Assembly: GCA_943329075.2 (NCBI GenBank)
Contig: CALQCM020000017.1
Location: 1-64,000 of the forward strand
Source: Chitinophaga pinensis
GTDB taxonomy: Bacteria > Pseudomonadota > Gammaproteobacteria > Burkholderiales > SG8-41
Length of the DNA: 64,000 nucleotides
Direction of reading: 5' to 3'
Shown here: positions 2,821-8,699 of the stretch, piece by piece
Layout: every line of letters starts with the position of its first letter
Numbering within the stretch: the first letter of the stretch is position 1
The notes under the pieces: generated by a model
What the model was told of the DNA's origin: nothing
What the model saw: only the letters and a program-made list of their open reading frames with translations
Databases searched by the model: none
Program-made: the position numbers and the translations under genes

Positions 2821-2931
2821 GATGGTTCCCTAGGTTCTGTGTGAACGTTTTATTTGGTGGCCATGATACTACCGTACGCGCGATGTCGATGATGATCGGG
2901 TATGATTTGCGGAACTGATTGGATCGAAAAT

Positions 2932-3909
2932 ATGACGAAATTGATTTTCAGCGGTGCGCGTTTGATGGTTGCAGCGATATTGATCTCGGCGTGTGCGGGT
3001 GCTGTGGCGGAGGTGTATCCGACCAAGCCGATACGCATGGTGGTTGGTTTTTCAACGGGCGGCGGACCGGACATTGTGGGGCGATTGATCGCGCCCAAGA
3101 TGGCGGAAATTCTCGGGCAGCAGGTGGTCGTTGACAACCGACCGGGCGCGGGCGGGAGTATTGCCGAAGAAATTGTAGTCAAATCGGCACCCGACGGTTA
3201 TACGATACTGGCTTGCTCAAACAGTCTTTCGATCAATCCGAGTCTGTACAAGAATCTACCCTATGTACCGCTGCGCGACCTTGCGCCAGTGAGCCTAACC
3301 GGAATCAGCGGGCAAATGCTTGTGGTTGCGCGCGCACTCCAGGCGAGATCGATCGAAGAGGTGATCGCACTGGCGAAATCGAAACCCGGACAGTTGACGT
3401 ACGGGTCGTCAGGCAATGGCTCGGGCTCACATCTGTCGGGCGAATTGTTCAAGGTCATGACCGGCGTACAAATCACCCATGTCCCGTACAAAGGCGGCGG
3501 ACAGGGTGTGGTTGCGCTGTTGAGCGGCGATGTTTCGATGATGTTTGCCGCGGCAGCGCCGGCGCTGCCATTTGTAAACTCCGGGCGTATGAAGGCGCTG
3601 GCAGTGACCACCGCAAAACGCATGGCCGCCGCGCCTGACGTGCCGACAATGGACGAAGCGGGGGTCAAAGGTTATGAGTCATTTCCGTGGTACGGCGTAT
3701 TGGCGCCTGCGGGAACGCCCAAGCCGGTGATAGACCGCCTCAATGCAGCAGTGATTGCCGCAGTAAAGTCGCCTGAGTTGAAGGATCGCTACGCGACGCT
3801 TGGCGTCGAACCGGCCAGCGGTACGCCTGCGGAATTCAGGCGATTTGCCGAAGTCGAACTCAAAAAATGGGCGCAGGTTGTCAGGCAGGGGGCATTGAGA
3901 GCGGATTGA
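2932..3909 (+). CDS. Bug-family tripartite tricarboxylate transporter receptor
   Basis: Bug (TctC-like) proteins are periplasmic receptors that clamp small carboxylates between two lobes. This one is 325 aa from ATG 2932 (a start at 2902 would add ten residues ahead of the signal). The signal peptide ends near residue 26; ISAC at about residues 18-21 also fits a weak lipobox. The mature domain opens with YPTKPIRMVVGF. The N-lobe loop is STGGGPDIVGR where PGGxxD is usual, and the hinge motif HVPYKGGGQG is present. It pairs divergently with the SDR gene. Ligand unknown. Confidence 0.92.
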   Translation: MTKLIFSGARLMVAAILISACAGAVAEVYPTKPIRMVVGFSTGGGPDIVGRLIAPKMAEILGQQVVVDNRPGAGGSIAEEIVVKSAPDGYTILACSNSLSINPSLYKNLPYVPLRDLAPVSLTGISGQMLVVARALQARSIEEVIALAKSKPGQLTYGSSGNGSGSHLSGELFKVMTGVQITHVPYKGGGQGVVALLSGDVSMMFAAAAPALPFVNSGRMKALAVTTAKRMAAAPDVPTMDEAGVKGYESFPWYGVLAPAGTPKPVIDRLNAAVIAAVKSPELKDRYATLGVEPASGTPAEFRRFAEVELKKWAQVVRQGALRAD

Positions 3910-4450: not shown

Positions 4451-5455
4451 CTAATCGGCGCGTATGCCTCTCTCACGGATCAATTTACCCAGCTTGGATA
4501 CGTCACCGGTTAGCTGTTCATAAAACTCTTTACCTGTATTGCCAACCACTTCGATGCCCTGGTTGAAAAAATATTGCTTCACCTCAGGTTGCTGAATGAT
4601 CGAAACGATTTCGCGATTTAATTTTTCGATAATCAGGGACGGGGTCATGGCGGGGGCCATGACGCCATACCAAATGCTTGATTCAAAGCCCGGCATTCCC
4701 GCTTCGGCTAATGTCGGCCACTGTGGCACCAGACTCGAACGCCCCGGGCTGGTGACGCCCAGAACGCGAAGCCGCCCGCTGGTGACATGGGGACGCGCAA
4801 GGAAAACAGCCGGAAATAAAATCTGTATCTCGTTGCCCATCAAAGCGGCAATTGCCGGAGCGATTCCCTTGTAGGGGATGTGCGTCATATCTATCCGGGC
4901 ATTGGCTTTGAATAATTCGCCGGCCAGGTGTATCGGACTACCGGCGCCGGATGAGCCGAAATTTATCCTCGTCGGGTTACTTTTCGCGTAGGAGATAAAT
5001 GCTTGAACCGATGTTGCAGGGAAAGAGGCGTTCAGCACTGCAACCAAGGGCGAGATCCCGACCAATGTTATTGGGGTGAATGACTTTACGGCATCAAACG
5101 ACAACTTTGGGTATAAAGCGGGGTAGGCAGCCTGGGTGCTCATAGCGATGAGTAGTGTGTGGCCATCAGGGTCAGCCCTTGAGGCCATTTCAGTCGCGAG
5201 GATGCCTGCCGCAGCCGGTCGATTGTCGATCACCACGGATTGTCCGAGACGTTCCGAGAGTTGGCTGCCGATTTGTCGTGCGATTAAATCGGAGCCTCCT
5301 CCCGGAGCGAACGGCACCAGTATACGGACCGGCTTCTGCGGATAACTGGTGGCGGAATATGCGGTTGAGAAAAGGAATGCCGGGGATAAGAAAAACGTGA
5401 TTGCCAAAAGCAATAAGAATAGGTTTTCTGAAGGCGTCTGTTTTTGTTTGTGCAT
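4451..5455 (-). CDS. Bug-family receptor
   Basis: The protein is 334 aa from ATG 5455, chosen because GAGGA lies 8 bases upstream; an earlier ATG at 5470 has none. A long hydrophobic signal segment (FLLLLAITFFLSPAFLF) precedes SYPQKPVRILVPFAPGGGSDL, the canonical Bug N-terminus with an intact PGGGSD loop. The hinge motif is HIPYKGIAPA and the C-terminus ends in RGIRAD. The gene stands alone on the minus strand with no enzyme beside it, so its ligand context is missing. Confidence 0.92.
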   Translation of the reverse strand: MHKQKQTPSENLFLLLLAITFFLSPAFLFSTAYSATSYPQKPVRILVPFAPGGGSDLIARQIGSQLSERLGQSVVIDNRPAAAGILATEMASRADPDGHTLLIAMSTQAAYPALYPKLSFDAVKSFTPITLVGISPLVAVLNASFPATSVQAFISYAKSNPTRINFGSSGAGSPIHLAGELFKANARIDMTHIPYKGIAPAIAALMGNEIQILFPAVFLARPHVTSGRLRVLGVTSPGRSSLVPQWPTLAEAGMPGFESSIWYGVMAPAMTPSLIIEKLNREIVSIIQQPEVKQYFFNQGIEVVGNTGKEFYEQLTGDVSKLGKLIRERGIRAD

Positions 5456-5722
5456 CCCGGGATTCCTCAAAACGTTATGCCGATGGTCAGGCCAGATGGC
5501 GGACGCTTCAAGAGGTCGTCATGCCGAGGTGATAAGAGTATTGCATTTCTCCGGCTGCGGATATTTAATCAAGGCCGGACGGGTTTCATGGTCTTTCCCG
5601 ATCCCTTATTTACCCATCCCAAATAAAACTAGTCAATGATATTTGGTGCTGGTCTAAAAAATTAGGGGCGAGATTCAACGGTTCATGTTGGTGCGACCAA
5701 TAAGCGTTGGCAATATTCCTGA

Positions 5723-5837: not shown

Positions 5838-6254
5838 TTAAGGTGTCGTGCCTGCCAGCGGGTTGTTGATGTTCAGGGTTCCACTCTTCACGGAAGCCGC
5901 GAGCTGGATGCGGCGGTTCGGCGGCGGATATCTTACAAATCGATTGCTGTCTTCGGCCGATGCGACGGGCGGGTATCTTGTCAGGCCATTGTTTTCGGTG
6001 TTCGAATCGAGTGGCGGATATCTGACGAAATTAGCGCTTTCCACAGTCGAATTACTCGTCGGGTGACGCACCGCGTGGGCGTCGTTGTGTTGGCCGGTTT
6101 TCGCGCTCGTCGCCGGTGTTGTCTCATCGCCTGGCTGCACGGGATATCGAACGAAATAGGCTTCACCTGCGGCATTTGAAAATGGCACGCTGCCGGTCAG
6201 AAATAGTGTTGCTGCAGTCAATGCCAGAATCTTCGTGCTGACCATGTTTTTCAT
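5838..6254 (-). CDS. Secreted protein with 15-residue RYP repeats
   Basis: The protein is 138 aa from ATG 6254, which follows AGGAG by about 10 bases. A Sec signal peptide (residues 1-28, cleavage near SNAA) leads into a low-complexity region. The motif (F/T/V)-R-(Y/H)-P occurs five times, with RYP or RHP at about 36, 63, 78, 93 and 108; the last four are exactly 15 residues apart. Linkers are rich in Ser, Asn, Asp and Glu, and the tail is basic. No domain is recognised. It is probably exported to the periplasm or surface; function unknown. Confidence 0.65.
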   Translation of the reverse strand: MKNMVSTKILALTAATLFLTGSVPFSNAAGEAYFVRYPVQPGDETTPATSAKTGQHNDAHAVRHPTSNSTVESANFVRYPPLDSNTENNGLTRYPPVASAEDSNRFVRYPPPNRRIQLAASVKSGTLNINNPLAGTTP

Positions 6255-6727
6255 GCCTTTGCACTCCTGTGTGGATGCGACAACCCGGATCCAGCGCCTG
6301 CTGGGTCTATTCACGAAAGATGTAGCAAAGGATGTGCCTGTTATTCAAAGCATGCAGAATCAACACGTTATATACATTCTGCCATTTTAATGACGTTTCA
6401 TCGGTGCGCTTTTTATGCCGCGAGCGTCGTCATTTTTGTGACCGAGATTCGATGGCGCTGAGGTTTTTCCTTCAATCACAGGGAATTTGCCGAACACCGG
6501 CGGCGCTTTTTGGGGCGCGCACTAGATTTTGGTGGTTCTGAATCTGTAAACGCTAGATGTTGTGGGGTTCGCGTAGAGCGCCAGAATCAATAATAAAAAG
6601 CTGGCGTAACGCATTAAAAACATGTGAAATGTTGATAATATTGAATGTGTCAATCAGTAATTCAGCACACCGTAGTGTTACGCCAAAACGGTCATACATT
6701 CAGTAAAAAAAAGCATAAGAGGCCAGG
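6255..6727. promoter_or_regulatory. Upstream region of the ParA-like operon with inverted repeat
   Basis: This 470-bp AT-rich stretch lies between the divergent RYP-repeat gene and the ParA-like operon and carries no supported gene. A 9-bp inverted repeat, TGGCGTAAC at 6602-6610 and GTTACGCCA at 6677-6685, lies 40-120 bases before the start codon at 6728. A smaller repeat AACAT-GTGAA-ATGTT lies between them. A regulator or the operon's own ATPase could bind here; that is inference. Confidence 0.4.
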
Positions 6728-7570
6728 ATGAGCGCTGTAAAGATTCTGATTACCAGCCAAAAAGGTGGCGTCGGCAAAAGTACTATCTCCGCCAACCTTG
6801 CAGCTTATTTTTCGGACGTAAAATTCAAACGCGTTACCCTGATCGATTTCGACCATCAGGCAACCGCGAGTTACTGGATGAAGCGCTGCATCTTCCGGGC
6901 TGCGGTCAGGATCTGCGATGCTCTTTCTTATAAGTCCTCAGGGCTGAGCTTATTAAAAGCGAAGGAGGAGTTGCGAATCGCGAGTGCCGCCTCGGATATC
7001 GTAATTGCTGACCTGACCTGGGTTGATATTTTTCCGGATAGCTTTTTCTTTGATTATGACTTGATCATTATTCCATCGTCGCTGTCCGGTATTGAACTGG
7101 CAAGCGCAACGGATTTCTTGACCCGGTTTGCCCCGGTTTTCAATTCGCGCAATCTGCATACGCCCCAGATCATCCTGATGCCGAACCGCTTGCTCGACAT
7201 TAATAATTACCGGACCTTCTTTAACAATTGCGGCTTTCCGGTTCCATTCAGCCTGACCAGCCCGATCATGTTTTCAAAGCCGGCGCAGGAGTCGTTTGGC
7301 GAGACTTATTTTTTCAAGAGCGGCGACAGTGCGCTGAAAGAGTCATTTCTGGTCGTCTGCAAGGAAATCGAAGAGTTGGTCAGTGATCTCGTCGTGAGAA
7401 AAAACAAGAAAATGCAAACCCTGACAGGGGTTGCCTCCATCAAGCGTTCGAATGGCGGGGGACTGCTCGATAAGTTTATAGCGAGCCGCAATGCTGTCAG
7501 GAAAGAGGAGGCCGTGCCCGCTCCCCGCATGAAAGCCGAACACAAATGGTTTGGATTTCTTCAACGCTAG
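6728..7570 (+). CDS. ParA/MinD-family ATPase
   Basis: The protein (280 aa) is a P-loop ATPase of the ParA family. Visible motifs are the deviant Walker A KGGVGKST at residues 14-21, the Walker A-prime motif LIDFDHQATASYW at about 38-50, and a Walker B-like strand IVIADLTW near residue 91. Such ATPases dimerise on ATP, bind DNA or membrane and position plasmids, chemoreceptors or other cargo. The C-terminal 60 residues are basic and Gly/Ser-containing, ending HKWFGFLQR. No ParB gene or parS-like array is seen. It heads a three-gene operon with a coiled-coil and a membrane protein. Confidence 0.88.
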   Translation: MSAVKILITSQKGGVGKSTISANLAAYFSDVKFKRVTLIDFDHQATASYWMKRCIFRAAVRICDALSYKSSGLSLLKAKEELRIASAASDIVIADLTWVDIFPDSFFFDYDLIIIPSSLSGIELASATDFLTRFAPVFNSRNLHTPQIILMPNRLLDINNYRTFFNNCGFPVPFSLTSPIMFSKPAQESFGETYFFKSGDSALKESFLVVCKEIEELVSDLVVRKNKKMQTLTGVASIKRSNGGGLLDKFIASRNAVRKEEAVPAPRMKAEHKWFGFLQR

Positions 7571-7617
7571 AGATCCCGGAAGATTCACAACACGGGTAAA
7601 TTGAAAAGCGACCAACG

Positions 7618-8250
7618 ATGAAACATTTCGATCCAAGTATTGGCTGGAAATCGCCGGTTGTTTCTCTGGGACTTGAGAAAAAATCCCGAGCAACGGGAGC
7701 CGGGAGCGATGACGCTGACCAAAGCGCATCCCATGGTTTGGATGCCCCGGTTGGCGAGCATTCTGCCGCTACCAGTACTATTTTTCATTTCAGCCGCTTC
7801 GGTAACCCGCTGCGTATTTCGGGATTCGACACGGTAGACGGCGATGCGGCCGCGGTGGAAGATAAATCCGCGCCGGTTGCGGAGCCTGCGCAGGAAGTGG
7901 CGCAGGGGTCTGCGGCTCAAAGTCCGCTGGCGTTACTTTCTTTCAGCACCGCCATTAATGAGATGTTTTCTGCGCTCGCAATTCGTGACGGGCAGTCAAA
8001 TGAGTTGCAAGACGTCGTAGAGAGCATGCGTCATTTGTCGGTGAAACTGGACGAAAAGCAGCGCCTCGAAGAAATCCTCGGTAGTGTCAACGAGGAAATT
8101 GCCGCCTTAAGGAATACGCTTGATGAGCGGGTGCTGGCTGCGCATGCACGGGAAAAGCAGGCATTAACGGCCAGCAAAGTCCGGGTCGAGCTCATGCAAG
8201 AACTGGTGAGTTCCCTTGTGATGTCCGGTGAGGTTCGGCACAAAAAATGA
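7618..8250 (+). CDS. Hypothetical coiled-coil protein in ParA operon
   Basis: The protein is 210 aa and starts 47 bases after the ATPase gene. Residues 1-25 are basic (K11, K21, K22, R24), residues 25-100 are an acidic Ala-rich, probably disordered segment, and residues 120-200 form a charged heptad-like helix typical of a coiled coil (QRLEEILGSVNEEIAALRNT). The layout resembles partners of orphan ParA ATPases, where a basic N-terminal peptide stimulates ATP hydrolysis and the coil dimerises, but no family is recognised. Its stop overlaps the next start as ATGA. Confidence 0.7.
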   Translation: MKHFDPSIGWKSPVVSLGLEKKSRATGAGSDDADQSASHGLDAPVGEHSAATSTIFHFSRFGNPLRISGFDTVDGDAAAVEDKSAPVAEPAQEVAQGSAAQSPLALLSFSTAINEMFSALAIRDGQSNELQDVVESMRHLSVKLDEKQRLEEILGSVNEEIAALRNTLDERVLAAHAREKQALTASKVRVELMQELVSSLVMSGEVRHKK

Positions 8251-8699
8251 AACCGCTCAGAGCGTTCGAGTTTTCTTTGTGGGTTGTATTGACCCATTGG
8301 TATGCACTGATTTTGGTGATTGTTTTCGAATGCACACACAGCGGCACTGGCTGGATAGCGGAAGTGCCGAGGGATTACTGGCTTGCCGAAGTCGTTGATG
8401 GCCTGGCTGGCGGCAAGGTGCAGGCCGGCGCGCTGTTGGTGTTTTGCTTGTACGCGCTGATAACAGTCAGCGCTTTGGTGTTGGTATACATTTTCGCCAA
8501 AATTGCAGCCAATGCGATCGGCACCCTTAAACGCAAAGCTGACTTGAAGATAACGGCCGCCGGGTCCGCGACGTCTTCCTCCGTGGCGGCAGCCGACGAC
8601 AGTGATATCGGGACGCTGCTGGTCACGCGTCCCGATCTGCAAGCGCATATCGAGAATTTCAGGAATCAGATGAGAAAAGTCTCGGGAAATCCGGGATAG
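8247..8699 (+). CDS. Two-helix membrane protein in ParA operon
   Basis: The protein is 150 aa and starts inside the upstream stop (ATGA overlap), which implies translational coupling. Predicted membrane helices are at about residues 9-28 and 59-86, separated by a short loop; a cytoplasmic or periplasmic tail of about 60 residues follows, with an Ala/Ser linker and a final helix. It is a plausible membrane anchor or cargo for the coiled-coil protein and the ParA-like ATPase. No family is recognised. A small CACC-AAAAA-GGTG hairpin lies downstream near 8858. Confidence 0.7.
   Translation: MKPLRAFEFSLWVVLTHWYALILVIVFECTHSGTGWIAEVPRDYWLAEVVDGLAGGKVQAGALLVFCLYALITVSALVLVYIFAKIAANAIGTLKRKADLKITAAGSATSSSVAAADDSDIGTLLVTRPDLQAHIENFRNQMRKVSGNPG

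Follow-up and report, generated by a model that had tools for sequence, protein, structure and literature searches.

Cargo positioning by orphan ParA-type ATPases follows a recurring pattern in systems such as McdAB, PpfA/TlpT, ParC, and FlhG, in which the ATPase gene adjoins that of a partner with a basic, disordered N-terminus and the adaptor varies with the cargo (passages of PMC10241942 and, for PpfA, of PMC9178275). As described there, a ParA/MinD ATPase is contacted by its partner through a disordered N-terminus of positive charge (PMC10241942), and for ParB an N-terminal arginine finger is the presumed means of stimulation (PMC9178275). A three-gene locus that shares this pattern lies at positions 6728 to 8699 of the DNA analyzed here, a stretch of 64,000 nucleotides (the window) from contig CALQCM020000017.1 of the Burkholderiales assembly GCA_943329075.2, a 5-Mb draft genome (G000) that is 86% complete. 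The trio consists of a ParA/MinD-type ATPase (gene 1), a coiled-coil adaptor-like protein (gene 2, CC), and a small membrane protein of no recognized family (gene 3, Mem). Unlike the four systems above, it has a ParA subfamily of its own, marked by the sequence DLTW, an adaptor family of its own, marked by a short motif, and a third gene for a membrane protein. It is reasonably probable that the trio is a cargo-positioning module of a new ParA/MinD subfamily, with gene 2 as the adaptor and gene 3 as the membrane anchor or cargo.

Gene 1 (6728–7570, + strand, 280 amino acids) belongs to the ParA/MinD superfamily by both sequence and fold, as established from Pfam and NCBIfam searches, homologs, and an AlphaFold2 (AF2) model. 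It passes three Pfam cut-offs in all, among them those of CbiA (6.7e-14) and AAA_31 (1.5e-10), and carries the deviant Walker A sequence KGGVGKST (6761–6784) with the signature lysine K12. The stretch K12-G-G-V-G-K17 and the residues D40, D42, and D95 are invariant across 21 aligned ParA rows. The AF2 model (predicted template modeling score, pTM, 0.78; 21 rows) has as its best match in the Protein Data Bank the ParA/ParF protein of plasmid TP228 (5u1g, E 8.8e-10), with a template modeling score of 0.84 by target length and 0.64 by query length. The named ParA and MinD models do not claim the protein, which scores 46.7 bits (2.6e-12) against the NCBIfam model ParA_partition (NF041546), where the curated cut-off is 180 bits, and 29.2 bits against the bacterial MinD model TIGR01968, where it is 212.9 bits, and which falls under the cut-off of all 25 NCBIfam models listed (of 29), those for ParA and MinD included. 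An anti-phage defense role was considered and set aside, the PADLOC match (0.0042) being unconvincing and confined to gene 1 residues 5–42, the P-loop.

The sequence DLTW itself stands at the Walker B/switch II position (7010–7021). The pattern D[LFIV]TW is present in 35 of 35 ATPases of the subfamily, rows that were chosen by their similarity to the window ATPase, and in none of ten other ParAs, five of which have D-x-P-P by the pattern used. In a tree with the ten others, a long branch with full support (100/99) sets these 35 apart, and gene 1 belongs to a distinct ParA subfamily. The window ATPase is itself a long branch, its nearest row being that of locus L080 (40% identity), and the tree did not resolve the ATPases of the trios as monophyletic. 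At its C-terminus gene 1 has a basic tail (7388–7567) with a net charge of +10 over the last 60 residues by charge count. The tail ends in FGFLQR and is modeled as a short terminal helix with low confidence towards its end (predicted local distance difference test, pLDDT, under 50). A stretch resembling P-x-F-L-R/K is found by a loose pattern at the C-terminus of 23 of 34 relatives (window excluded), and this end of the tail might contact the membrane, like the C-terminal membrane-targeting amphipathic helix of MinD, or a polar protein.

Gene 2 (7618–8250, + strand, 210 amino acids) supplies the ATPase-linked partner with a basic, disordered N-terminus that is typical of orphan ParA positioning systems, as judged from its charge, its motif, and its AF2 model. 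Neither gene 2 nor gene 3 matched any family above chance level in hidden Markov model (HMM) searches of Pfam, NCBIfam, PHROG, and PADLOC, in agreement with an earlier note on this DNA, made from the sequence, in which no family was recognized for the two proteins. That gene 2 belongs to a family was established in a leave-one-out HMM search, in which a profile built without the window ranked the window protein first (E 7e-16) in a set of 510 open reading frames (ORFs) of the window genome and 510 shuffles, the next best hit being at 0.69. The earlier note had also described the middle protein as having a basic N-terminus and a coil. The coil holds up, and a conserved basic motif can be added, but "basic" applies narrowly, the net charge being +3 in the first 30 residues and −12 in the remainder. 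In the AF2 model residues 13–102 have a pLDDT under 50 and are read as disorder, and they are followed by a single long helix or coiled coil at residues 127–209 (7996–8244), in which the mean pLDDT is 88–98 in blocks of residues 131–200, while overall confidence is low (pLDDT 64, pTM 0.33, 4 rows).

The N-terminal motif of gene 2, K-H-F-D-P-S-I-G-W (7621–7647), corresponds to the consensus [KR]x(0-1)[FY]xPxxGW. Its core, [FY]xPxxGW, is present in 26 of 29 CC proteins from loci fetched with their flanks, each of the 26 with a basic residue (K or R) at the first or second position ahead of the aromatic one, although these do not represent 26 independent events because many of the rows are from close relatives. 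A looser pattern, applied to the first 120 residues (1987 ORFs of at least 80 amino acids listed), picks out 23 ORFs of at least 90 amino acids, every one of them a CC protein. The motif is kept across the window, the Limnohabitans-type records, and both paralog groups of family f18, another family of the order. Gene 2 is a member of a new adaptor-like family, with a predicted disordered N-terminus that carries the motif and a long coiled coil after it. By analogy with the partners described above, the motif is a natural candidate for the contact with the ATPase and is proposed as an ATPase-activating peptide.

The closest fold match raises the question of whether the trio could be a leftover plasmid or prophage partition module, composed of a ParA and a diverged ParB-like protein. 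TP228 ParF-ParG is a type Ib system and, like gene 1, ParF is a small ParA that lacks an N-terminal helix-turn-helix (HTH) domain, while its partner ParG acts via an arginine-finger-like tail (by the title of a work cited in PMC9178275). Residues 2–54 of gene 1 also match phrog_164, a PHROG family named "ParA-like partition protein," at 3.7e-15. Unlike ParF-ParG, however, the trio matches no plasmid, no centromere site could be found for it, and its partner protein has no predicted DNA-binding fold. A ParABS system has a DNA-binding ParB or centromere-binding partner together with centromere sites, whereas gene 2 has no family and is predicted, at low overall model confidence, to consist of disorder and a helix only. 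No parS-like site occurs in the window at up to 3 mismatches from a 16-base consensus, and no iterated repeats (iterons) lie around the trio. This bears out the earlier statement that a parS-like site is lacking, while for the ParB partner, which was said to be lacking as well, the genes of the window were not individually searched for a ParB domain. Neither the 72,556 plasmids nor the 50,697 phages searched contain a match to gene 1, and viral contigs yielded no confirmed one. Gene 2 has no match in plasmids or viral contigs (phages lying outside that search). The earlier note had named a match of the last two proteins to a known plasmid or prophage partition module as what would refute its reading, and neither of them matches one, phrog_164 being met by gene 1 itself. 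A partition remnant is thus a most improbable account of the trio.

The positioning module gains support from the wider distribution of the genes, for which 45 loci were examined in the neighborhood counts (L082 and L229, the same f18 contig in mirrored orientation, being counted once). A contig scan with the window ATPase alone gave no relatives, while an alignment-based scan gave 80 loci, three of which are in the subfamily, the other 77 (4e-10 or weaker) being taken as ordinary ParAs without individual reading, ten of them placed in the tree. Named records include Limnohabitans sp. isolate 49638_E12 (L080), Limnohabitans sp. JirII-31 (L081), and Burkholderiaceae bacterium RJ.6 (L082). The gene 1 profile finds the subfamily in 14 of 399 genomes of an order sample (the window, 11 of family f18, and 2 of family f32) and in 1 of 369 of a class sample, the window's own. 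The gene 2 profile has matches in 13 of the 399, eight of them strong (the window and seven f18 genomes, the sequences of which were part of the profile), and all eight are among the 14 carrying the subfamily ParA. The other five matches, in family f5 (5.9e-5 to 9.2e-4), are taken as chance coiled coils. Gene 2 matches are also present in 17 of 26 f18 genomes and in 5 of 250 genomes of the family of a Limnohabitans metagenome-assembled genome.

The full trio is found together in 14 genomes besides the window, namely at L080 and in 13 f18 genomes, and in three arrangements. The three genes form one operon in the window, while at L080 genes 2 and 3 are a pair overlapping by ATGA and divergent from gene 1, and in f18 gene 2 is antisense and lies between genes 1 and 3. 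In one of the 13 f18 genomes (G461, L237 8599–9469) gene 2 is split over two overlapping frames by a frameshift or an assembly error. Two genomes (G423 and G447) are outside the counts as to gene 3, because of a contig end or a short locus. Since the genes stay together despite their reshuffled order, a functional link between them can be argued.

In the mechanism proposed for such a module, gene 1 would bind ATP, dimerize, and hold on to a cellular matrix, either the nucleoid or the membrane. The N-terminal motif of gene 2, K2-H-F-D-P-S-I-G-W, would dock on the ATPase dimer and trigger hydrolysis, while its coiled coil would dimerize and hold the cargo. Gene 3 would act either as the cargo itself or as the cargo's end in the membrane, so that a membrane-bound complex is what the ATPase-adaptor pair would place. 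On the most economical reading, the ATPase end may be constant and the cargo end of the adaptor variable.

The least certain component is gene 3 (8247–8699, + strand, 150 amino acids), which by hydropathy has hydrophobic stretches near residues 9–27 and 64–82, predicted as two transmembrane regions, and then a polar tail, the same topology as in the membrane proteins of the other trios. An unlikely alternative to the three-gene module is a two-gene ParA-adaptor module beside which gene 3 of the window is an unrelated small membrane protein, so that there would be no membrane step in the mechanism. What speaks for this also weighs against a membrane-linked trio. A gene 3 profile built without the window misses the third protein of the window, with no match up to E 10, while a profile without L080 recovers the membrane gene of L080 at 2.8e-8. 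Profile-profile comparison (hhalign) of window gene 3 with the other membrane proteins gives P 0.013 and a probability of 3.4%, and 14 of 300 block-shuffled copies of it score equally high. Moreover, at L081, L225, L226, and L238 (f18) no membrane gene of this kind accompanies the adjacent ParA and CC genes, the latter two overlapping by ATGA at L225 and L226 and by one base at L081. Against an unrelated gene 3, a protein with two transmembrane regions lies beside parA and the CC gene in 14 other genomes, the ATGA overlap with gene 2 (8247–8250) is the same in the window and in the Limnohabitans locus L080, and the loop and tail resemble those of the other membrane proteins by eye in the alignment. 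As topology and place agree while the sequence tests fall short, homology of window gene 3 to the other membrane proteins is graded as probable but unproven.

Further points count against the positioning module as a whole. Among the 74 genomes of its family, that of the window alone has the ATPase, the 73 others having no match to the single gene 1 sequence at E ≤ 1e-20. The CC gene and parA are unlinked in G601 and G693, each of which keeps one subfamily ParA elsewhere. There is also no cargo common to all loci, since bactofilins flank the L080 trio and are absent from three trio genomes (G217, G312, and G477), and the window genome has no match to TssC, a fragment of which was found in G048 among the six genus relatives tested. 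Conservation across genomes, which the earlier note had asked for, is borne out by the trio in 14 other genomes but not by the window's family, by the four ParA-CC loci that have no membrane gene, or by gene 3, the homology of which could not be demonstrated.

Possible cargos are suggested by gene neighborhoods in other genomes, and one of these involves the type VI secretion system (T6SS). TagJ/HsiE are T6SS accessory proteins encoded beside tssB. In six f18 loci (L042, L044, L239, L241, L242, and L243) a paralog of gene 2 occupies a position like theirs, directly upstream of tssB-tssC-hcp, with Pfam matches to VipA at L042, L241, and L243 and to Hcp at L042. Unlike TagJ/HsiE, the CC protein of L042 has no Pfam family, a ParA is encoded in the cluster in three of the six loci, and there are ParA-CC genomes that have no TssC. 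The three clusters with a DLTW ParA and a CC gene before tssB are L042 (209–9817), L044 (8837–18485), and L243 (6919–16478), where the subfamily ParA gene precedes the adaptor gene by 5–6 kb and has the same orientation. The motif is kept in all three of these CC proteins, and [FY]xPxxGW is absent from those of L239, L241, and L242, which have no ParA in the fetched stretch. Between ParA and the adaptor the three clusters encode unrecognized proteins with hydrophobic stretches and an HTH protein, to which L042 and L044 add a two-component pair, with a response regulator and, on the other strand, a histidine kinase. An unrecognized protein is common to L042 (7968–8858), L044 (9709–10617), and L081 (12780–14231), the L081 member having a SPOR domain and adjoining export genes of the FlhB and FliR families, which lie about 5 kb on in that stretch.

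Of 20 genomes tested for the sheath protein VipB (TssC), 6 have it, five of them f18 genomes with E ≤ 1e-123 and the sixth a genus relative of the window, G048, with a fragment at a contig end (C24:3-128, L057). From this fragment it follows that some T6SS exists in the window's genus. The T6SS was rejected as the cargo of the window trio itself, there being no TssC in G000 or in the ParA-CC genomes G423 and G447 (all three 84–86% complete).

The second association is with bactofilins. A bactofilin gene is directly beside the subfamily parA at six loci (L037, L039, L040, L043, L046, and L049), four of which have an M23 peptidase gene within about 3 kb, and no CC gene was found at any of the six. 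The L080 trio has around it the genes of four bactofilins, of two M23 peptidases, and of an HTH protein that weakly matches RodZ_C. In two published studies, ParA is linked to bactofilins through an adaptor in Myxococcus (BacNOP-PadC-ParA) and bactofilins cluster with M23 peptidases (BacA-LmdC) (PMC5703909, PMC10945521), and L080 combines genes of these kinds around the trio. On this model the ATPase could instead be a regulatory one, of the FleN/FlhG or the PadC-bactofilin type, that controls the number, activity, or assembly of an envelope complex, such as that of an M23 peptidase and a bactofilin, rather than its movement. This is quite improbable for the trio, as three trio genomes have no bactofilin, none lies near the window trio, and no transcription-factor gene is among the neighbors scanned. 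The CC protein also differs from the BacNOP system in not being ParB-like by any family match. The three trio genomes with no bactofilin likewise rule out a bactofilin as obligate cargo. The window genome does have two bactofilins elsewhere, the second of which is followed by an HTH_25 gene (L223 8639–9385). A further group of DLTW ParAs (L038, L045, L050, and L051) is followed by an unrecognized protein of about 190–210 amino acids, the L038 copy of which has no Pfam family.

A broader extension of the positioning module, which is possible but somewhat doubtful, is that DLTW ParAs and motif adaptors form one interchangeable positioning platform in the Burkholderiales, in which exchange of the cargo end of the adaptor would have coupled one ATPase chemistry to T6SS sheath assembly in some genomes, to the bactofilin/M23 cell-wall machinery in others, and to a dedicated membrane protein in the trio.

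In the window the three genes are intact on the + strand as the earlier note had it, each starting with ATG and having no internal stop, with a spacer of 47 bases (7571–7617) between genes 1 and 2 and the ATGA overlap between genes 2 and 3. Its remark that they do not fit their transporter surroundings is also confirmed, the six flanking genes scanned encoding two TctC receptors, an amidohydrolase, two dehydrogenases, and an acyl-CoA dehydrogenase. Promoter-like sites number 2 where 2.2 are expected and terminator-like sites 14 where 3.6 are expected, mostly within genes. Genes for TctC/Bug-type receptors are at 2902–3909 and 4451–5470 of the window, and several more are elsewhere in the genome (L223 4811–6902). 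A divergent neighbor (5838–6314, − strand) encodes a protein with an apparent signal sequence, repeated RYPP motifs, and no family. The amidohydrolase neighbor is present in 13 of 15 genomes of the genus, the window's included. An empty insertion site could not be demonstrated in the two closest genus genomes that were fetched, which match only the amidohydrolase and one TctC-family gene, and the TctC-family match in L265 has 37–39% identity with other ORFs in between, genes of this family being numerous.

As far as the searches show, the ParA subfamily, the motif adaptor family, the membrane gene, and the links to T6SS and bactofilins are all undescribed in the literature searched. No open-access paper among those searched treats ParA-type positioning of T6SS in its title or abstract, and one article (PMC13129497) mentions a ParA family protein once, where it deals with effectors and immunity proteins. 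The label orphan is given to many ParA/MinD ATPases because their partners are too diverse to be recognized (PMC10241942). For the ParA subfamily described here, the likely partners are marked by a single short motif, which makes it possible to search for partners and cargos, and exchange of a single lysine would suffice to test the contact between peptide and ATPase. If the platform exists, it would, as far as the literature searched shows, be the first system of the ParA type devoted to the placement of a T6SS, and if the T6SS link holds, it would be a candidate for how some bacteria choose the site of T6SS assembly.

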